Shown here: piece after piece, positions 13,818 through 43,780 of the stretch
Numbering within the stretch: the first letter of the stretch is position 1
Layout: each line of letters begins with the position of its first letter
From: Herpetosiphonaceae bacterium
GTDB lineage: Bacteria > Chloroflexota > Chloroflexia > Chloroflexales > Kallotenuaceae
DNA: 46,634 nucleotides
Direction: 5' to 3'
Assembly (NCBI GenBank): GCA_013821605.1
Contig: JACDGP010000002.1
Coordinates: 1 to 46,634, forward strand
Program-made: the position numbers and the translations under genes
Notes under the pieces: model-generated
What the model was told of the DNA's origin: nothing
Database searches by the model: none
What the model saw: only the letters and a program-made list of their open reading frames with translations

Positions 13818-13986
13818 AGCGTATTTTCCTCATGGTGATTGTAGCCCAGCCCATGTGCAGCAATCAACAGAAGATGTGCTACAGTTAGGTTAGCTTACGA
13901 CAGGCCCTACCTTCCCGCTGGCACTGTCTGCTCCCTGTGTGCAATGGGGCCGCAGGTGCTTTACCCTTGCTAAGGTGGTACGAACC

Positions 13987-15231
13987 ATGATCGATTGGAC
14001 TGCAAATTACGGTTTCTTCCTCAATGAACAGCACGACATGCTCCGCCAGGCCGTGCGCGACTTTGCCGAACGCGAGGTTGCCCCCTTTATTCGCGATTGG
14101 GATCGCGCTGGTGCGACCGAGGGTGGCACAGCTCCACATATGATCCCGGTCATCAAGCGCATGGGCGAACTTGGCTTTCTCGGTGTCTGTCTACCACAAA
14201 AGTACGGGGGTGCTGGCTTTGATTATCTGGGTCTGGCAGTCGTTTGCGAGGAGCTAGAGCGGGTCGATACCGCCCTACGCGTCGTCCTTAGCGTCCATAC
14301 TGGCTTGAATTCGCTCGCTGTGTTTCAATGGGGTAGCGAAGATCAAAAGCAGCGTTTTCTGGTGCCCCAAGCGACCGGGGAGAAGATTGCTGCCTACTGC
14401 TTGACGGAGCCCAACGCAGGTACTGATGTCGCCGGCATGCAAGCCACGGCTGTGCTAGAGGGTGATCACTATGTGCTGAATGGCGAAAAGACCTGGATCT
14501 CGCTGGCCGACATCGCCGATCATTTTCTGGTCGTGGCCTATACCGACAAAGGGCAACGCCAACGAGGCATGACGGCCTTTATCGTCGAGCGCACCATGGA
14601 AGGCGTCCAAACGCAACCCATCCATGGCAAGCTGGGCGTCCGCGCCGGTAACACCGGCAGTGTTGTTTTCGACAATGTGCGTGTGCCCGTCGCCAACCGG
14701 CTGGGCGAAGAGGGCGAAGGCTTCAAAATCGCGATGACTGCGCTAGATAATGGGCGTTATACCGTTGCGACAGGGGCCACCGGCTTGATCCAGGCCTCCC
14801 TCGAAGCCTCCCTGCGCTATGCCAAAGAACGCGAAACGTTCGGTGTGCCCATCGCTGACCACCAGTTGGTCAAGCGCATGATCAGCCACATGATCTTGAA
14901 CTTGGAAACCGCCCGCTTGCTCTGCTACCGTGCGGGCTGGATGAAGAATCAAGGCATCCGCAATAGTCGTGAGACGACATTGGCTAAGTGGCACGCCACG
15001 GTTGAGAGCTTCGAGGCCGCCAATAATGCGATCCAGATCCATGGGGCCTATGGCTATAGTGACGAATACCCGGTCGAGCGCTACCTACGTAACAGCCGGG
15101 GTGCCATCATCTACGAAGGCACGCGTGAACTGCAAGAGTTGCTCCAGGCCGAGTTCGCCTTTTCCGAGCGTGAAAACAAGCCGTTGCGCTGTGAACTCCC
15201 CGCCTATGATGAAGCCGTGTGGAATGCGTAG
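13987..15231 (+). CDS. Acyl-CoA dehydrogenase
   Basis: A 414-residue flavoprotein that introduces the alpha-beta double bond into acyl-CoA, passing electrons to ETF. The family signatures CLTEPNAGTDVAG and GVRAGNTGSV are clear, and the catalytic base is Glu377 in YEGTRE, the position used by medium- and short-chain enzymes. It is about 30 residues longer than usual, with a charged C-terminal tail after the catalytic region. The ATG at 13987 follows AAGGTGG at ideal spacing; the frame is open to 13939 but that part does not look like the family. With the PhaB-like reductase it suggests traffic between acyl-CoA and PHA monomers (inference). A strong hairpin follows the stop codon. Confidence 0.93.
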   Translation: MIDWTANYGFFLNEQHDMLRQAVRDFAEREVAPFIRDWDRAGATEGGTAPHMIPVIKRMGELGFLGVCLPQKYGGAGFDYLGLAVVCEELERVDTALRVVLSVHTGLNSLAVFQWGSEDQKQRFLVPQATGEKIAAYCLTEPNAGTDVAGMQATAVLEGDHYVLNGEKTWISLADIADHFLVVAYTDKGQRQRGMTAFIVERTMEGVQTQPIHGKLGVRAGNTGSVVFDNVRVPVANRLGEEGEGFKIAMTALDNGRYTVATGATGLIQASLEASLRYAKERETFGVPIADHQLVKRMISHMILNLETARLLCYRAGWMKNQGIRNSRETTLAKWHATVESFEAANNAIQIHGAYGYSDEYPVERYLRNSRGAIIYEGTRELQELLQAEFAFSERENKPLRCELPAYDEAVWNA

Positions 15232-29246: not shown

Positions 29247-31232
29247 GTGCTGACCGAAGAAGGCCGAAAGCGAGTAGTTATTGAAGGTGTGGAGCCGGAG
29301 ATCGATTGTGGCCGGTTCCCAATCAAGCGGCGGGTCGGCGAGCAGGTTGTCGTTGAGGCCGACGCTTTCACCGATGGCCATGACGCCGTCTCCTGTGTTT
29401 TGTTGTATCGCCAGGGCTCTGAGTCAGAATGGGCCGAAGTGCCCATGGAGCAACTGGTTAATGATCGCTGGCGCGGTAGTTTCGTCGTCTCACTGGTCGG
29501 TCCGGCCCAATATACCGTACAAGCGTGGGTTGATCGCTTTAAGTCCTGGCACCGTGACTTCGTCAAGCGCGTTGAGGCCAACCAGGATCTCACCGTCGAT
29601 CTGCAGATCGGTGCAGGTTTTGTAGAAGATGCGGCGCAACGTGCTCCCGCTCCGGACCGTAACACGCTCCAGGCTGCCGCCACGACATTGCGCGGTGGCG
29701 GCGCCGAGGCAATCCGCCAAGCCCTATCGCCCGAACTGACATTGTTAATGTACCGGCATGCTGAGCGTTACTTTGCTCGCACCTACCACCGCGAACTAGG
29801 GATCGTGGTTGATCGCGTCAAGGCACGCTTTAGTGCTTGGTACGAACTGTTTCCGCGCTCATGGTCGCCTGAACCGGGCCGCCACGGGACCTTTAAAGAT
29901 GTTGAGCAGCAACTCCCCTATGTGGCCTCCATGGGCTTCGACGTGCTCTACTTCCCGCCGCTATCGCCCATTGGCCAGAGCTTCCGTAAGGGGCCCAACA
30001 ATACCACTGTTGCCGGTCCGGCTGATCCGGGCAGTCCCTGGGCCATCGGTTCCGCTGAGGGCGGCCACACGGCGATCCATCCCGAACTGGGCACACTAGC
30101 TGACTTCCACCATTTGCTGGCGACGGCCGGCCAATATGGCCTTGAGCTTGCCGGTGACATCGCGTTTCAATGTGCTCCCGATCATCCGTATGTCACCGAA
30201 CATCCAGAGTGGTTTCGGCATCGCCCTGATGGAACCATTCAGTACGCCGAGAATCCCCCCAAAAAATACCAGGACATCTACCCCTTCGACTTCGAAACCG
30301 AGGACTGGCAAGCACTCTGGCAGGAACTCAAGAGCATTATCCTTTTCTGGATCGAGCAGGGCGTGCGCATCTTTCGGGTCGACAATCCGCACACCAAGCC
30401 CTTTGCTTTCTGGGAATGGCTGATCGGCGAAATCCGCCGTGACTATCCCGAGACGATCTTCCTTGCTGAGGCCTTTACCCGTCCCAAGCTCATGTACCGG
30501 CTGGCGAAGCTCGGCTTTAGCCAGTCGTACAACTATTTTCCATGGCGCAATACCAAAGCGGAGCTGATCGAATACTTCACGGAGCTCACCCAGACCGAGG
30601 TGCGCGAATTTTTTGGGGCCAATTTGTGGCCGAACACACCCGACATTCTGCCCGAATCTGTTCAGTTCGGCGGTCGCCCGAATTTCGTGGCCCGTCTGAT
30701 CCTGGCTGCTACCCTCGGTGCCAGCTACGGCATTTACGGCCCGGCCTACGAGTTGTGTGATAACACGCCGCTCGCATCTGGTAAAGAGGAATATCTCCAC
30801 TCCGAGAAGTTCGAGATCAAACGCTGGGATCGTGACCACCCCGACAGTCTAAAAAACCTGATCGCTCGCGTGAACACCATCCGCCGCGAGAACGCCGCTC
30901 TCCAGAGCTACCAGAACCTGCATTTTCACCATATTGATAACGATCAACTGATCGCCTACACCAAGACCACTGATGACCTAGCGAATATCATCCTCACTGT
31001 TGTCAATCTCGACCCGCACTACACGCAAGCGGCCATGTTGGATCTGCCACTCGACGCTTTCGGCCTCGACCCACGGCAGCCCTACCAAGCGCATGATCTG
31101 CTAACCGACACGCGCTACCTGTGGCACGGCACACGTAACTATGTTGAACTCAATCCGCATACTGTGCCTGCGCATATCTTCGCCATCCGCCGCCGGGTCC
31201 ACACCGAGCAGGACTTCGATTACTACCTCTGA
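29247..31232 (+). CDS. glgE: Alpha-1,4-glucan:maltose-1-phosphate maltosyltransferase GlgE
   Basis: A 661-residue GH13 enzyme that extends alpha-1,4-glucan with maltosyl units from maltose 1-phosphate. The N-terminal domain starts KRVVIEGVEPEIDCGRFPIK, as in GlgE. The barrel shows the nucleophile Asp379 in FRVDNPHTKPF and acid/base Glu408 in FLAEAFTRP. Length is usual for GlgE (about 660-700). It begins at GTG 29247 with a GAGGAG box and lies 90 bp after glgM and 24 bp before the maltokinase gene. Branching enzyme GlgB and trehalose synthase TreS, the other parts of the pathway, are not in the window. Confidence 0.95.
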   Translation: MLTEEGRKRVVIEGVEPEIDCGRFPIKRRVGEQVVVEADAFTDGHDAVSCVLLYRQGSESEWAEVPMEQLVNDRWRGSFVVSLVGPAQYTVQAWVDRFKSWHRDFVKRVEANQDLTVDLQIGAGFVEDAAQRAPAPDRNTLQAAATTLRGGGAEAIRQALSPELTLLMYRHAERYFARTYHRELGIVVDRVKARFSAWYELFPRSWSPEPGRHGTFKDVEQQLPYVASMGFDVLYFPPLSPIGQSFRKGPNNTTVAGPADPGSPWAIGSAEGGHTAIHPELGTLADFHHLLATAGQYGLELAGDIAFQCAPDHPYVTEHPEWFRHRPDGTIQYAENPPKKYQDIYPFDFETEDWQALWQELKSIILFWIEQGVRIFRVDNPHTKPFAFWEWLIGEIRRDYPETIFLAEAFTRPKLMYRLAKLGFSQSYNYFPWRNTKAELIEYFTELTQTEVREFFGANLWPNTPDILPESVQFGGRPNFVARLILAATLGASYGIYGPAYELCDNTPLASGKEEYLHSEKFEIKRWDRDHPDSLKNLIARVNTIRRENAALQSYQNLHFHHIDNDQLIAYTKTTDDLANIILTVVNLDPHYTQAAMLDLPLDAFGLDPRQPYQAHDLLTDTRYLWHGTRNYVELNPHTVPAHIFAIRRRVHTEQDFDYYL

Positions 31233-31256
31233 TTCTTAGCAGGAGACCCGAGGTTT

Positions 31257-32957
31257 ATGACTGGAACAAACGAGCACCAATCCGGCGGCACCGAAGCTCC
31301 CGACCTCCCCACCATAACAATCAACGGCGAGTGGGTTACCCTGCTGCAGGGCCAGGAAACGCACACCCTAGCCCGCTACTTCCCGGCCTATTTACAGGGA
31401 CGGCGCTGGTTTGGGGGTAAAGCCCGCACGATCAACGCAGTCCATATCGCCGGCACACTGCCTCTTGCGTTTATGGATGAGCAGGCGTACCTGTCGTGGC
31501 TCGAAGTTGATTATACCGACGGGGATACAGAAATCTATGTCTTGCCGCTGGCCTTCGCTACCGGAGAGCGGGCACGCCGGCTTGTAGCTGAGCAATACCG
31601 TACAATCCTTGCACGCGTGAAAATGAGCGGTAATGGGATCGAGGGCATCCTGTACGACGCCCTCGTGGAGCCGGCCTTTTGTTCTGCACTCCTGACTACC
31701 ATCGGAGATGGCCAGCTGCTTCAGTCCGCCGAAGGGCAACTGCTGCCTTCTACAACGGGCGCATTTAAGCAACTTCTCGGTTCCTCCAGCCCCGTGCTCG
31801 ATCCCAGGATTGTCAATGCCGAGCAAAGCAATACGTCGGTAATCTACGGTGATCGCTTCATCATGAAGCTCTTTCGCAGGCTTGAAAGCGGCATCAATCC
31901 CGATCTCGAAATCGGTCGCTTCCTCACGGAGCATACAGCATTTGCGCATGTCCCGCCCGTAGCCGGTGCCTTGGAGTACCGACCGCAGGATGGCGTACCC
32001 ATGACTCTTGCCATTCTCCAGGGCTTTGTGCCCAATCAAGGTGATGCTTGGAGCTACACCCTGGAAGAATTAGAGGCGTACTTTAAGCACACGGCAACCG
32101 AGCAAGCCGCGCCCCAAGCCGCTGCATTATCAACTGGCCAATTATTGGCCCTTGCCGCACAGCCACTGTCCCCTGAAGCGCAGGCGTCACTCGGGAGGTA
32201 TGCCGAATCGGCCCGCCTCCTTGGCCAACGTACCGGTGAACTCCACGTCGCCCTAGCCTCCAATTCCACTGAGACGAGCTTTGCGCCTGAGCTTTTCACA
32301 GAGGAGTTTCAGCGCGCCTTTCATGCATCCTCAACGGCAGCGGCACGCCGTGCCTTCAGCACATTGCGCAATGCCCTGGCGCATCTGCCGCAAGCGACGC
32401 AGCCATCCGCACAGGCCCTGCTTGACCGTGAAGAGGCGATCCTGGATCGTTTCGAGCCGCTCCTGGCCCATCCGTTGACGGCTTTGCGGATCCGGTGCCA
32501 TGGTGACTACCACCTTGGGCAGGTGCTCTTTACCGGGCAAGACTTCTTCATCATCGACTTTGAAGGAGAGCCTGCCCGACCATTGAACGAGCGCCAGCGT
32601 AAAAGCTCCGCACTCCAGGACGTGGCCGGTATGCTTCGCTCGTTGCATTATGCTCCCTATGCCGCCTTACGCAGCCGCTCGTCCGGACCGTTCGGCCACC
32701 CGGCCGAAGCTGTACCGCAGGATGGCTGGGCCCGTGCGTGGCACCGCTGGGCCAGCACCGCCTTCTTGAACGGCTATCTAGCAGCGACCAGACAAGCCAC
32801 CTTCTTACCGCAAACCCGTGCGGAGCTCCAACGACTCCTTGACATCTATCTACTTGATAAAGCCATCTACGAAATGGTGTACGAGCTCAATAACCGTCCC
32901 GACTGGATCACGATACCTTTAGAAGGAATCTTGCAGTTGCTGGAAACTGCTGCTTGA
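31257..32957 (+). CDS. mak: Maltokinase (Pep2/Mak family)
   Basis: A 566-residue kinase that phosphorylates maltose to maltose 1-phosphate with ATP, feeding GlgE. The N-terminal cap has QGRRWFGGKARTI, and the kinase core has His415-Gly-Asp417 in CHGDYHLGQ and Asp434 in IIDFEGEPARPL, the catalytic and metal-binding motifs of the family. It is about 100 residues longer than mycobacterial Mak, with an Ala/Gln-rich insertion around residues 280-300. There is no fused trehalose synthase domain. It is the last gene of the glgM-glgE-mak unit and ends 37 bp from the convergent Doc gene. Confidence 0.93.
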   Translation: MTGTNEHQSGGTEAPDLPTITINGEWVTLLQGQETHTLARYFPAYLQGRRWFGGKARTINAVHIAGTLPLAFMDEQAYLSWLEVDYTDGDTEIYVLPLAFATGERARRLVAEQYRTILARVKMSGNGIEGILYDALVEPAFCSALLTTIGDGQLLQSAEGQLLPSTTGAFKQLLGSSSPVLDPRIVNAEQSNTSVIYGDRFIMKLFRRLESGINPDLEIGRFLTEHTAFAHVPPVAGALEYRPQDGVPMTLAILQGFVPNQGDAWSYTLEELEAYFKHTATEQAAPQAAALSTGQLLALAAQPLSPEAQASLGRYAESARLLGQRTGELHVALASNSTETSFAPELFTEEFQRAFHASSTAAARRAFSTLRNALAHLPQATQPSAQALLDREEAILDRFEPLLAHPLTALRIRCHGDYHLGQVLFTGQDFFIIDFEGEPARPLNERQRKSSALQDVAGMLRSLHYAPYAALRSRSSGPFGHPAEAVPQDGWARAWHRWASTAFLNGYLAATRQATFLPQTRAELQRLLDIYLLDKAIYEMVYELNNRPDWITIPLEGILQLLETAA

Positions 32958-33785: not shown

Positions 33786-34009
33786 GTGAGTCGTCGGAGT
33801 ACGTCAGCATGCTGCGCCAAAATCCGCCGCAAGCGCGCCACCATAGTCGGGTCGACATCCGGCAAGGCTTGCAGTGCCCAATCGCCGTTCGGCAGCCGGT
33901 CAAACGCGACTAAAAGCGGCCCTTCGGACTGTGCCTCTAGCCATGCCACGAGTGCTGCAGGCAGCCCACCCGCTGGCAAGAGCAAAAAAGCCTCAGGTTG
34001 TTGCTGCAT
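33782..34009 (-). CDS. 75-residue unknown protein, candidate antitoxin or adaptor
   Basis: I do not recognise the family. The protein begins with a hydrophobic, Pro/Gly-containing segment, has an acidic central part (FDRLPNGDWALQALPDVD), and ends in a basic amphipathic helix (about residues 54-75). No cysteine or membrane span is present, and it does not look like Phd, AbrB or ribbon-helix-helix antitoxins. Its position directly before two Doc genes, with 17-bp and 4-bp overlaps to its neighbours, is where an antitoxin would be expected. It could also be a cofactor of the upstream nuclease. Confidence 0.7.
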   Translation of the reverse strand: MQQQPEAFLLLPAGGLPAALVAWLEAQSEGPLLVAFDRLPNGDWALQALPDVDPTMVARLRRILAQHADVLRRLT

Positions 34010-35612
34010 CGGTCCTCATCACTCGCTCAAGTATGGCCTGTAAAGCGTTTGTATGATCGGGCAGCGTCGGCAGCGCGCCAACGTCGCCCGCCAGCACCGG
34101 CGTGGTGCCTGGAAACAGCAGCCACACTCCGCTCGTGGCCGGCAGGCCGTTATAGCCCACGGCACCCCGATAGGTGTAGGCCGTATCGAGCGCGTTTTGC
34201 GGCAAACTGCCGTCGGGCATAACCCGGTATTTGGCGTCCAACAGCAGACTCATAGGCCTATGCCCTTCCTGTTCCAGCTCGATCACAATATCTGGAATAC
34301 GCAGAAACGGATCGAGTGAGCCCCACCCTTCGTGGTGGCCCGCCAGCGGCAGGTAACGGCGTTGATAATACAGCTTCGCCCGGCCTCCATTGGGCTGGCG
34401 TAGGACCAGCAGCGGACAATTTTCGGCGAGCGTCAGCGTCCAGGTCAGCCCATGGGCTGCGCCGATCCGGAATAAACTCTGCTGCTCGACTTCACCGAAC
34501 TCCAGCAGGCTCGCAGCCGTCCACAACAAGCACCACTGCTCATACAGTGTTGGGAGATCGGCCAGCGGTAAGCTCCATAACGGGCTATCGATGGCCAGTT
34601 GGGGCATCTCCCGTAACGAGCGCCAGAGCGCATACAGCGCGCGATAGCGCCGGTCGTGGCGCATCAAGTGGGTCGGTGTAATGCAATGTGTTGCAGCGGG
34701 CAGACCGTCGAGCAGTGGAAGCGCTTGTGCGCGCCGCAGTTCACGTGCCGCCCGTTGCTGCCCCAACTGCAGTTCGCGGATCAGCCCGGCCCCCAGCCCT
34801 GAGCGTGTGCGCCGCTCTTGTTCACGCTGCATGATCGCGCCACTCTCGGTGACACGTTGTGCCAAACGGTCAATCACACCCCGCAATAAGCGATGTTCCA
34901 AACAATCATGCGAAGAAGCGGTGCTTGATACGGTGATGCTGTGCGGCAAGGAACCGACCCCTGTATGACCAAGCGGCTGCAACATTGTTTGCAGTGTAGG
35001 CAGTGTAGCGGCCCCAACTTCATCAAGCGGTTGGCTGGCGAGATTGGCCAAGGCCGCACCATCAATGGTATCGAGCTCGTAGAGTGGCCGGGATGTGATC
35101 GTCCGTTTTGGTAGCTCCTGTGGACTGCGTGCGATCGCCTTCGCCAAGTCGACTGCGTGCATAACCTGCTGCTCAAGCTGTGGCCATGTGAGCAGCAGTG
35201 AACGCTCTGTTACACGCGGTCCTCCTTCGCTCCCAACTTTGCCCCCGCCCAGCGCGAGCATGAGTGCCAGTGCTGTGGCTTGGACCTCCTGTAACAGCCG
35301 CTCATACTGCTCCAGGCGCAGTTTGCTCGGCACAACCGTCAGCGACCACGTCTCGCTGTCTGCACCTACCGTCAGCACCACCGGGAAGCTCCCGGTCCGA
35401 TTCTCTGGATTCCACGTCCAGCGCCATCTAGCATCGCCAAGCTTGAGCGTCGGTGCTCCCAGATCCTCCGTACCAATGCGCAGACGAACAGTATCACCCT
35501 GTCCATGCGGGTTGCAGGTAAGTGTAATCGGCTGCCACTCCTTAACGGGCTGGGCGGCGGTAAGGAGTTGACCATTGATCAACATTGAGGATTGCTGCTG
35601 CGTATCGTCCAT
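33993..35612 (-). CDS. DUF2357/PD-(D/E)XK nuclease-domain protein, McrC-like
   Basis: A 539-residue protein. The N-terminal 100 or so residues are beta-rich, the middle is helical (about 100-340, with an Arg/Glu-rich stretch near 255-290), and the C-terminal domain has a PD-(D/E)XK nuclease signature: Pro440-Asp441 in RIPDIVIE and Asp459-Ala-Lys461 in LLLDAKYR. This order recalls DUF2357 proteins, relatives of the McrC nuclease subunit that normally pair with an McrB-like AAA GTPase. No such partner is present on either side. The family call is from memory. No ribosome-binding site is seen at ATG 35612; ATG 35585 is an alternative. Confidence 0.75.
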   Translation of the reverse strand: MDDTQQQSSMLINGQLLTAAQPVKEWQPITLTCNPHGQGDTVRLRIGTEDLGAPTLKLGDARWRWTWNPENRTGSFPVVLTVGADSETWSLTVVPSKLRLEQYERLLQEVQATALALMLALGGGKVGSEGGPRVTERSLLLTWPQLEQQVMHAVDLAKAIARSPQELPKRTITSRPLYELDTIDGAALANLASQPLDEVGAATLPTLQTMLQPLGHTGVGSLPHSITVSSTASSHDCLEHRLLRGVIDRLAQRVTESGAIMQREQERRTRSGLGAGLIRELQLGQQRAARELRRAQALPLLDGLPAATHCITPTHLMRHDRRYRALYALWRSLREMPQLAIDSPLWSLPLADLPTLYEQWCLLWTAASLLEFGEVEQQSLFRIGAAHGLTWTLTLAENCPLLVLRQPNGGRAKLYYQRRYLPLAGHHEGWGSLDPFLRIPDIVIELEQEGHRPMSLLLDAKYRVMPDGSLPQNALDTAYTYRGAVGYNGLPATSGVWLLFPGTTPVLAGDVGALPTLPDHTNALQAILERVMRTDAATT

Positions 35613-40289: not shown

Positions 40290-40358
40290 AAGCGAGACAA
40301 GCACTAGCACCAATTTCGGCCTACGGACCTCCGTTTGCAACCGATAAAGGACGATGCG

Positions 40359-42911
40359 ATGAAGCAAAAGCTGCGAGGCATGAAGCGGCAGGATATCCAG
40401 CTTGATTTCGATCTCTATCGGGTGGAAGTTCCGATCCGCGGGCTCGCCAATGCCTCGCTCAGCGTCCTAGACTTGTGGCCAGAAGGTGCCAAGCAAACGG
40501 TCATGTTTGTGCATGGCTACGCCGGGAGCTTGGAAAGCTGGGAGTTTCAGATCAACTACTTCGCGCGCAAGGACCGTGTCGTCGCGCCCGATCTCCGTGG
40601 TCACGGCCAGAGTGACGCGCCATACACCCAATACACCATGGCCGAGCTGGTTGCTGATCTCGAAACTATCGTTGAGACGCTCCACCTACCGCCAACGTTT
40701 ATTCTAGTTGGTCACTCGTTTGGCGGCGCGATCTGCATCGAGTATGCAGCTGCTCACCCCGCCCGGCTAGCCAAGCTTGTTCTGATCGCGACTGCCGGTG
40801 AATATCCTTTGCCACAGTCTGCCGACTTGTTATTGCGTGTTCCGAATATGCTTATCCGGCCTTTTTGGAAATATCGCCCCCGCTGGAACGCCGAGCTCCA
40901 TGTCTTGAAGCGCATGATGGCCAACAACCTGCGTACCTGGCGCGGCTGGCCGCTTTTGCGTAACCTGAAGGTCCCTTGCTTGATCGTGACCGGCGAGCGC
41001 GATAGTTATTTTCCGCGGTATGTCTTCGACGATGTGGGCAAGATGGTGCCTCATGCTGAGCTCTATGATGTTGGCTCGGCCAAGCATAAGGTGCAGCTTG
41101 AGCGTCATGAAGCAGTTAACCGGGCAATTGAACGCTTCATCGGTAATGATCCGCAGAGTTCATGGCGTCAGGCTGTGGGTACACCCTACCCATTACGTGA
41201 TCGCCCTTGGATCAAAAGCTACAGTCCGGAAACACCGCCTACTGTGCCCATTCCCGGTCGACCCCTCACCTCCTTTTTAGAAAGTGCGGCTAAGTGGGTT
41301 CCCAAGCGTACTGCCACCATTTTCTATGGTACCGAGCTCTCGTACCAAGAACTCAACCAACAGGTCAATCGTTTTGCTCATGTTCTACATGGGCTCGGCA
41401 TCCGTCCTGGTGAGCGCGTGATGGTGGTGTTGCCGAACATGCCGCAGTTGGTGATCGCCTATTATGCGATTTTGAAGATCGGCGGTGTGGTCGTACTGTC
41501 CAACCCTGATGCTGATGCTGCCTCGGTGATTCATCAAGTGCAGCAGACGGATGCGCAGATCATTATTACCCTAGACAGCTTCGGGCGTTTAGCTAAAACA
41601 GTGCTCGACGGAAGTGCTGTCCACCATGTCGTGTGGGCCAGCTTCCAACGCGCGGTTGCGCCCCACGTCTACAAGCAACTCGTGGCACGCTGGAGCATGG
41701 ACGCAGACGCGGCGGAGGACACCGTCTTGGCTCAGGCCGTCGGCAGTTCAATGGCAGTGCTGATGCACGATGCCCCTACCCACGCCCCACAGGTCAACGT
41801 CACACCCGCTAACCTCGCCGCGATCATCTTTACCAGCGGTACGACGGAAGAACCGAAAGGTGTGGCGCTCACGCATGCCAACCTTGTAGCCAACACCGTC
41901 CAGATCCGCCACTGGATTCCAGATCTTGTGTATGGCCAAGAAATCTGCTTGGCCGCTATCCCGCTCGTGCACAGCTATGGTATGACCAACGCCATGAACT
42001 TGCCGGTGGCGCTGGGAGCGACTATCGTGCTGCTACCGGTCTTCGAGGTCGACCAGGTGCTTGAGCAGGTCAAAACCTATAAGCCCACGCTCTTCCCGGG
42101 CGTTCCATCCATGTATGCCACGATCAATCAGGCTCCCAATGTCCGCTCCTTTGGCCTTGCCTCGATCAAAGCCTGCTTATGTGGGGCGGCCCCTTTGCCC
42201 GTTGAAGTGCAGGAAGCGTTCGAAAAGCTAACGCGTGGTCGCTTGGTCGAAGGCTATGGCTTGACCGAAGCCTCACCCGTGACCCATGCCAATCCACTCT
42301 ACGGTGTACGCAAGCCGGGCTCGATCGGCGTTCCGATTCCCAATACCGACGCGAAGATTGTGGATCTGCTGACCGGTGCAGATCTGCCTGCCGGTGAAGT
42401 CGGCGAATTAGTGGTCAGGGGACCACAGGTGATGCAAGGCTACTGGGGTGATGATGCGCTAACCGATACGGCAACCGTCCTCAAAGCCGGCTGGCTGTAT
42501 ACCGGCGACGTTGCCGTCTGCGATGGCGATGGCTATTTTCAGATCATCAGTCGCAAGCGCGACGCCATCATGTCCGGCGACTACAGTGTCTACCCACGCG
42601 ATGTCGAAGAGGTCATCTACGAAAATAACAAGGTGCGGGAAGTTGCGGTGGTTGGGGTCGGTACCGCAGCGACCGGCCAGCATGTGAAGGCTTTTGTGGT
42701 ACCTCGCCCAGGCACCAATCTCACCGCCGCAGAGCTACTTGATCTTTGTCGGCGGCGCCTCGCACCGTATGCCGTGCCGTGGGAGGTTGAGTTTCGTCAA
42801 GAGTTGCCGAAATCATTTATCGGCAAGGTCCTCCGGCGTTTGCTTGTTGAGGAGCCCAGCGCGCAAACAAATGGCAAGCCGGTACCCGAGCGTGAAGGAG
42901 ATAGCCTTTGA
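40359..42911 (+). CDS. Alpha/beta hydrolase-acyl-CoA synthetase fusion protein
   Basis: An 850-residue fusion. Residues 1-270 form an alpha/beta hydrolase with VHGYAG, nucleophile Ser120 in GHSFGG, Asp215 in GERDSYF and His243 or His250. From about 306 to the end is an AMP-forming acyl-CoA ligase with the P-loop FTSGTTEEPKGVALTH, YGLTEASP, YTGDVAV and the catalytic lysine in KSFIGKVLRR. One chain could release a fatty acid and activate it. It differs from OleBC fusions, where the hydrolase nucleophile is Asp. AAAGGA supports the ATG at 40359. The patatin gene overlaps its stop by 4 bp. Confidence 0.9.
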   Translation: MKQKLRGMKRQDIQLDFDLYRVEVPIRGLANASLSVLDLWPEGAKQTVMFVHGYAGSLESWEFQINYFARKDRVVAPDLRGHGQSDAPYTQYTMAELVADLETIVETLHLPPTFILVGHSFGGAICIEYAAAHPARLAKLVLIATAGEYPLPQSADLLLRVPNMLIRPFWKYRPRWNAELHVLKRMMANNLRTWRGWPLLRNLKVPCLIVTGERDSYFPRYVFDDVGKMVPHAELYDVGSAKHKVQLERHEAVNRAIERFIGNDPQSSWRQAVGTPYPLRDRPWIKSYSPETPPTVPIPGRPLTSFLESAAKWVPKRTATIFYGTELSYQELNQQVNRFAHVLHGLGIRPGERVMVVLPNMPQLVIAYYAILKIGGVVVLSNPDADAASVIHQVQQTDAQIIITLDSFGRLAKTVLDGSAVHHVVWASFQRAVAPHVYKQLVARWSMDADAAEDTVLAQAVGSSMAVLMHDAPTHAPQVNVTPANLAAIIFTSGTTEEPKGVALTHANLVANTVQIRHWIPDLVYGQEICLAAIPLVHSYGMTNAMNLPVALGATIVLLPVFEVDQVLEQVKTYKPTLFPGVPSMYATINQAPNVRSFGLASIKACLCGAAPLPVEVQEAFEKLTRGRLVEGYGLTEASPVTHANPLYGVRKPGSIGVPIPNTDAKIVDLLTGADLPAGEVGELVVRGPQVMQGYWGDDALTDTATVLKAGWLYTGDVAVCDGDGYFQIISRKRDAIMSGDYSVYPRDVEEVIYENNKVREVAVVGVGTAATGQHVKAFVVPRPGTNLTAAELLDLCRRRLAPYAVPWEVEFRQELPKSFIGKVLRRLLVEEPSAQTNGKPVPEREGDSL

Positions 42912-43780
42912 CACGTCCAACGCTTGCCCTGGTGCTAGGCGGTGGCGGCAGTCGTGGCTTGGCGCATATTGGCGTGTTAGAGGTGCTCCAACGTGAGCAT
43001 ATTCCCATTGACCGTATCGTGGCAACCAGCATGGGCGGTATTGTCGGCGTGCTCTTTGCTCTGGGCCTGCCCCCCGATCAGATTGCTCAATGGACCAGAC
43101 GGGCGATGGTGATGGTCGAACCCCAGCCGTATGCACTTCGCAACGTCCGGCTTCTGTCCTCGCGTGCCCGCCAGCAATGGCTACGCAAGCAGTTCACTCA
43201 CCTGCTTGAGGAACAAACCTTTGCCGATCTCCGTATCCCTGTCACCCTGATGACGGTCAACATGCTCGACGGCACCGAAGTGCCACTCACGACGGGTCCG
43301 CTTGTGCCCGCCTTGCTGGCCACGACTGCGGTCCCAGGCCTTTTCCCGCCGGTGCCTTTCGGTGACATGCAACTGGCCGATGGTGGCGTCATCGATAGCC
43401 TGGCGACCCACGTCGCCGTTGAGCAAGGGGCCGACAAAATCATTGCAGTCGATGTCTACCCCGCGCTCACAACCGACCGGCCCTGGAGTAACCCGGTCAG
43501 CGCGATTATGGGCTTCCAGCTGCCGCTCGCGTTGTTTAGCGGAGCTGATGCCCTACAGGGCCCCAATATGTTCTCGTCGATGTGGCGCTCCGTGCGGGTC
43601 ATGACCTGGCATTTGCACCAAAAGCGGCTGGCCGATGACCCGCCGGACATCTTGCTGCGCCCGCGCGTTGATACCTATGGCTCACTAGATTTCAAAGATA
43701 TGGATGGTCCCCTGCAGGCGGGCGTTGAGGCAGCCGAGGAGCGCCTGGCAGACATTAAAGCCTTATGCGGCGAGCGCTGA
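42908..43780 (+). CDS. Patatin-like phospholipase (RssA type)
   Basis: A 290-residue patatin with the oxyanion motif GGGGSRG at 11-17, nucleophile Ser41 in ATSMGG, and Asp158 in LADGGVIDS, which forms the Ser-Asp dyad. It should hydrolyse acyl esters of membrane lipids; it has no signal peptide. The TTG start at 42908 overlaps the upstream TGA and has AAGGAG at good spacing. Coupled translation with the hydrolase-ligase fusion suggests one lipid-remodelling step: patatin frees fatty acid, the ligase re-activates it (inference). Confidence 0.9.
   Translation: MTRPTLALVLGGGGSRGLAHIGVLEVLQREHIPIDRIVATSMGGIVGVLFALGLPPDQIAQWTRRAMVMVEPQPYALRNVRLLSSRARQQWLRKQFTHLLEEQTFADLRIPVTLMTVNMLDGTEVPLTTGPLVPALLATTAVPGLFPPVPFGDMQLADGGVIDSLATHVAVEQGADKIIAVDVYPALTTDRPWSNPVSAIMGFQLPLALFSGADALQGPNMFSSMWRSVRVMTWHLHQKRLADDPPDILLRPRVDTYGSLDFKDMDGPLQAGVEAAEERLADIKALCGER

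Follow-up and report, generated by a model that had tools for sequence, protein, structure and literature searches.

We describe a gene fusion in a 46,634-nucleotide stretch of DNA from a Herpetosiphonaceae bacterium (contig JACDGP010000002.1, hereafter the window), in which an alpha/beta hydrolase and a FadD-type, adenosine monophosphate (AMP)-forming acyl-coenzyme A (CoA) ligase are encoded in one open reading frame (ORF) of 850 amino acids, directly followed by a patatin gene. The protein combines known domains in a conserved fusion that is centred on one phylum, Chloroflexota, and was not found described in the open-access literature, where no paper was recognised as dealing with it. Judging from its sequence, the protein may be a bifunctional acyl-ester hydrolase and acyl-CoA ligase for lipid turnover, a reading to which we give an even chance.

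Two domains in one reading frame

As the first-pass annotation had claimed, a serine hydrolase is fused to an acyl-CoA ligase: both lie in the same ORF, both are matched by Pfam families (Abhydrolase_1 at residues 47-149, 7e-30; Abhydrolase_6 at 48-256; AMP-binding at 308-696, 7.4e-95; AMP-binding_C at 749-823, 1.8e-17), and relatives carry them in frame. The start was placed at the ATG at 40359, the longest in-frame ORF opening earlier, at TTG 40335 (Table 1). The predicted structure of the whole protein has a mean predicted local distance difference test score (pLDDT) of 79.4.

The N-terminal domain carries a Ser-Asp-His triad on a hydrolase fold, as serine alpha/beta hydrolases do, formed by Ser120 (GHSFGG), Asp215 (GERD) and His243 (AKHKV). 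Across the fusions this triad is invariant (Ser 49/49, Asp 49/49 and His 50/50 rows with letters), which bears out the earlier claim that the nucleophile is Ser and not Asp. The alignment of 51 rows includes one repeat (L091, of L051); L071 and L072, in which the hydrolase columns are absent, and L117, another repeat of L051, were dropped. Whole-model searches with Foldseek and VIA returned almost only ligases, so the hydrolase domain was folded alone; the resulting model has a pLDDT of 87.4 and an esterase fold, with 5h3h_A matched at Z 30.0 (233 residues, 2.0 A), and most of its nearest folds are esterases or other hydrolases. In NCBIfam, no model reached its cut-off for this domain alone, the 25 best coming from lactonases, esterases, dehalogenases and the like. 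PHROGs placed the domain in esterase/lipase families and the ligase in unnamed ones, and no PADLOC model matched the fusion protein.

The C-terminal part has the AMP-binding and C-terminal domains and the catalytic A10 Lys of AMP-forming acyl-CoA ligases. Its motifs comprise the P-loop TSGTTEEPKG, which includes Glu497, together with Glu637, Asp717, Arg732 and Lys823, the last of which is retained in 49/50 fusion rows with letters. In the whole-protein model this part resembles solved ligases (Z 44.0 to 8wev_A over 478 residues, 3.8 A), and its best NCBIfam models are those of long-chain fatty-acid--CoA ligases (PRK05605 and PRK06710), at 508.9 and 493 bits against cut-offs of 766 and 1116. 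As a yardstick of conservation we used the 76 columns in which at least 97% of 35 unfused ligases agree, after removal of the duplicate L004 row. The window ligase retains 65/76 of these columns, against 61-68 in its own clade (clade A), 62-67 (of 75) in a second clade of fusions (clade B) and 65-66 among the 11 nearest unfused ligases.

Distribution of the fusion and its unfused counterparts

A search of contigs returned 40 loci with relatives, among which 21 (L050-L070) cover both domains, two (L071 and L072) are cut or broken, and 17 cover the ligase only; 23/23 of loci L050-L072 carry the names of Chloroflexota groups. Since full-length relatives at 60-68% identity hold both domains in one frame, the fusion is more than chance. 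In the phylum of the window, 27/400 genomes matched at E 1e-170 or better, the window's own included, and 27/27 cover both domains; in one Chloroflexota family (f13), the fusion occurs in 57/100 genomes (44/65 good genomes). Separate genes in all relatives, the outcome that the first-pass annotation had named as refuting its claim, is thus not what was found, and the idea of a unique local fusion was rejected, given its recurrence across Chloroflexota genomes and its commonness in family f13. Among 60 relatives from the window's own family and order, on the other hand, the full fusion was found in one (G004, 39% identity), the rest being ligase-only or below threshold, and this patchy distribution suggests that the window genome may have acquired the fusion from another class.

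A search in other phyla, also proposed at the outset, gave little. Both domains matched in 0/296 genomes from the phylum of an Acidimicrobiales locus, where ligase-only matches occurred in 75, and in 1/299 genomes from the phylum of an Ottowia locus; at most three candidates were scored per genome in these two samples, and a divergent fusion could be missed. The lone full-length fusion of the latter sample (genome G963, loci L160 / L167) has an intact Ser triad and a degenerate ligase.

A ligase tree of 81 rows groups 50 fusions with 11 unfused ligases from the window's order (support 96) and sets 17 generic FadD rows aside, and in a hydrolase tree of 75 rows the fusion domains, four unfused hydrolases and one further own-genome hydrolase form a group of 55 (support 95); both trees are quick searches without bootstrap, in which several deep forks are open and the long branches L030 and L116 are unsure. 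Membership of L171-L176 in clade B rests on identity (46-48%) and not on these trees. At the inspected unfused ligase loci of the window's order, a hydrolase lies upstream of and adjacent to the ligase in 5/7, and a second hydrolase stands just before it in 5/5; at L143, where about 400 bases precede the ligase, the missing hydrolase says little. Neither an adjoining hydrolase nor a second one was seen at any of 4 generic FadD loci. Fusion in some genomes and adjacent separate genes in others make up a Rosetta-stone pattern, which suggests that the two domains serve one path. Either the fusion or the separation may have come first. At two loci (L138:6624-7079 and L142:8174-8656), the unfused hydrolase and the ligase are separated by an ORF of 151-160 amino acids with an ACT_7 domain.

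The patatin gene and other neighbours

The fusion had also been described as coupled to a patatin by a 4-bp overlap. The overlap is there, the patatin start and the fusion stop sharing TTGA; the coupling is particular to a minority of loci. The patatin itself has the expected motifs, GGGGSRG (position 11), ATSMG (39, with Ala for the first Gly of GxSxG) and DGG (158). It matches phospholipase effector models of PADLOC at up to 52.2 bits, which is taken as general patatin likeness, and PHROGs holds no matching family. At E 1e-45 it was found in 4/151 sampled genomes of the phylum, namely the window's own and three of the window's order, whose neighbours were only partly checked.

Downstream genes were counted over distinct loci with enough sequence, leaving out L054, L067 and L069 (fewer than 300 bases remaining). 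Directly downstream of the fusion, clade A has a patatin at 6/25 loci (window included) and an alpha/beta hydrolase at 1/25; at other clade A loci examined the gene there is unrelated, for instance one for a polysaccharide deacetylase or a LON-domain protein. The proposal that a patatin always accompanies the fusion was therefore rejected. In clade B and similar loci, a separate alpha/beta hydrolase lies downstream within 200 bases in 16/20, overlapping the fusion in 12/16 when the longest ORF is taken. Five other divergent fusions (L123, L134, L135, L136 and L167) have neither a patatin nor a second hydrolase downstream. The theme of the neighbourhood is a fusion accompanied by another acyl hydrolase, for which a patatin can stand; this theme is pronounced in clade B and applies to only a minority of clade A loci. 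In family f13 (L124-L133 region), genes for a ribonucleotide reductase and NrdR are often found after the clade B fusion and its second hydrolase.

Table 1. Coordinates of the fusion gene, its parts and the patatin gene in the window
Feature	Position	Strand	Description or basis
Fusion ORF, 850 amino acids	40359-42911	+	alpha/beta hydrolase + FadD-type AMP-forming acyl-CoA ligase
AAAGGA, ribosome-binding-like, 7 nt 5' of fusion ATG	40346..40351	+	read by eye from sequence
alpha/beta hydrolase domain, residues 1-271	40359..41171	+	Pfam Abhydrolase_1, aligned triad, structure model
Linker, residues 272-300	41172..41258	+	alignment
AMP-forming acyl-CoA ligase domain, about residues 301-850	41259..42908	+	Pfam AMP-binding + AMP-binding_C
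AAGGAG, ribosome-binding-like, 7 nt 5' of patatin TTG	42895..42900	+	read by eye from sequence
Patatin-like phospholipase, 290 residues, TTG start	42908..43780	+	Pfam Patatin 7.1e-31

Elsewhere in the window, a GlgE-type maltosyltransferase gene adjoins a maltokinase-like gene (29247-32957), an alpha-glucan pathway pair, and a protein with DUF2357 and a PD-(D/E)XK nuclease is encoded at 33993-35612 (-), for which a PADLOC search gave no match.

Proposed function, alternatives and known systems

To our knowledge, lipid turnover in the phylum Chloroflexota has been little studied. If the fusion is a bifunctional acyl-ester hydrolase and acyl-CoA ligase, its Ser-Asp-His domain would split an ester, with a lysolipid or monoacylglycerol as the likeliest substrate, to release a fatty acid, and its C-terminal domain would adenylate the released acid with adenosine triphosphate (ATP) and hand it to CoA, so that free acid need not accumulate. 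The coupled second acyl hydrolase, in the window the patatin, would perform the first deacylation, giving two hydrolases for two acyl bonds and one ligase for the released chain. Of the readings weighed here this is the best supported, by the invariant triad, the retained ligase motifs, the second acyl hydrolase that recurs beside the fusion and the adjacent unfused gene pair of related genomes. We infer the substrate, both activities, the transfer between the domains and the fate of the acyl-CoA, as well as the link between ester cleavage and re-activation of the fatty acid that the first-pass annotation had drawn. An active protein of this kind would hold the release and the re-activation, the steps on either side of the free fatty acid, in one chain. 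Since the window genome has seven acyl-CoA dehydrogenase matches, the acyl-CoA product could plausibly be oxidised or reused; an acyl-CoA dehydrogenase is encoded on the same contig as the fusion (window 13939-15231). The wax-ester/DGAT family PF03007 had no match in the window genome, a result that is uninformative because 14/14 controls were equally silent.

Several observations weigh against this reading. For the hydrolase domain, the lipid-specific family models of NCBIfam all stay below cut-off, and 18/25 clade A loci have neither a patatin nor a second hydrolase after the fusion. Of 30 family f13 genomes with the fusion, 29 also have a stand-alone FadD, so a need for general fatty-acid activation does not explain the fusion, which in that family is a specialised copy; in the window genome, the next ligase that matches most of the ligase domain is only 35% identical. 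The most direct objection concerns the P-loop. The ligase had been called complete, which holds for its fold and its motifs as a whole; the P-loop consensus [ST]SG[ST]TG is not matched, its Gly being Glu497. The same Gly, retained by at least 97% of the 35 unfused ligases and by 11/11 of the closest unfused ones, is replaced by Asp, Glu or Ser in 24/25 clade A ligases, and a residue other than Gly stands there in 14/20 clade B ligases. In two published mutant studies, Gly166Ile lowered the overall rate of 4-chlorobenzoate:CoA ligase 14-fold and its adenylation 60-fold (PMC6122825), and Gly219Ala reduced the Vmax of an E. coli acyl-CoA synthetase by 42% (PMC8388817). These mutants mark the P-loop Gly as helpful rather than essential. 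A general degeneration of the ligase was rejected for clades A and B, whose column retention matches that of the closest unfused ligases despite the changed Gly.

Erosion is plainer in three divergent fusions, which retain fewer of the ligase-invariant columns (L030 52/73, L116 57/76, L160 47/73). L030 has lost both the P-loop Lys and the A10 Lys, the P-loop and the C-terminal end of L160 are degenerate, and the Ser triad is intact in both. From these residues the ligase looks inactive in L030 and L160 and eroded in L116, which also weighs against the bifunctional reading; given the degradation of these three, some lineages seem able to do without an active ligase. Whether fusion channels the fatty acid could be tested with the natural controls that the unfused, fused and ligase-dead forms offer.

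The main alternative, which appears rather unlikely, is that the alpha/beta domain is an acyltransferase: the ligase would make acyl-CoA or acyl-AMP, and the Ser domain would move the acyl group to a lipid hydroxyl, by analogy with OlsH and OlsI or E. coli Aas. OlsI, an alpha/beta hydrolase-fold protein encoded together with an adenylating enzyme, is an O-acyltransferase (PMC12493201), and the NCBIfam OlsI model does match the window domain over residues 42-263. However, the score of 56.7 bits falls far short of the cut-off (385) and many hydrolase models score higher, the structures closest to the domain are for the most part esterases or other hydrolases, and OlsH is a GH3-type enzyme and not a FadD in the same account (PMC12493201). 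More speculatively, and with a lower probability still, the fusion may belong to an acyl-exchange machine centred on Chloroflexota, in which a single polypeptide would strip acyl chains from lipids, or attach them by way of a hydrolase-fold acyltransferase, in direct exchange with its ligase; the coupled patatin or hydrolase would be its partner. Such a machine could have a membrane-repair role like that of Aas with LplT in E. coli, and a dead ligase might have been retained in a few lineages to serve the hydrolase as sensor or scaffold.

Thioester exchange is a further candidate that we consider improbable. Here the hydrolase would be an acyl-acyl carrier protein (ACP) or acyl-CoA thioesterase and the ligase would form a new CoA thioester, so that chains leave synthesis and enter the CoA pool, as with PhaG and AlkK. 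Ser-Asp-His alpha/beta hydrolases include thioesterases, and the fusion would account for immediate re-activation; nevertheless, thioesterase models are absent from the 25 best NCBIfam matches to the hydrolase domain, and the coupling to a patatin or second hydrolase points to ester lipids.

It is somewhat less probable again that the ligase domain has lost its ligase activity and instead senses fatty acids or nucleotides to control the hydrolase. The absence of the P-loop Gly from most fusions would fit such a role, as would the losses in L030 and L160 beside intact Ser triads and the 60-fold slower adenylation of the Gly166Ile enzyme (PMC6122825). Against it stands the E. coli Gly219Ala enzyme, which retained much activity. 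Clades A and B, moreover, match the closest unfused ligases in the number of ligase-invariant columns retained.

OleBC proteins also carry an alpha/beta hydrolase at the N-terminus and an AMP-ligase fold at the C-terminus, and the nucleophile of their hydrolase is Asp. The likeness to OleBC drawn in the first-pass annotation holds for this domain order in one chain (Pfam) and for nothing beyond it. Although ole genes are reported in some Chloroflexi (PMC7158056), an OleBC-type enzyme of olefin or beta-lactone synthesis is highly improbable and was rejected, given the Ser nucleophile in all 49 fusions with that column, a ligase best matched by long-chain acyl-CoA ligase models, and the lack of any OleA found in the window genome (99.57% complete), whose only PF08545 match resembles DpgA and does not show the EPxx[AS]..DxxNACL pattern of OleA. 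For the window ligase, the 25 best NCBIfam models name ligases other than OleC. That lone PF08545 match (L090:1087-2139, -) is a DpgA-like type III polyketide synthase, and no FabH was seen. Domain order alone should not prompt an OleBC annotation.

Among other known systems, the FadD-type ligases (PRK05605, PRK06710) provide the best models of the ligase domain, from which the window protein differs by its fused hydrolase, its P-loop Glu and scores under the model cut-offs. RssA-like patatin phospholipases likewise provide the best NCBIfam model of the patatin (104.5 bits), which stays under the cut-off of 272 and, unlike them, is coupled to the fusion. The planctomycete ornithine lipid pathway pairs the adenylating OlsH with the alpha/beta hydrolase-fold OlsI in one operon acting on fatty-acid substrates; these are, in contrast, separate genes with a GH3-type ligase and a demonstrated acyltransferase (PMC12493201), and the window hydrolase fails the AB_fold_OlsI cut-off. 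E. coli Aas joins an acyltransferase to an acyl-ACP synthetase for phospholipid turnover (PMC4666226). The fusion has no acyltransferase Pfam family at 0.001 and bears an alpha/beta hydrolase instead, yet like Aas it unites a lipid acyl-handling activity, here a predicted one, and an acyl-activating ligase in a single polypeptide.

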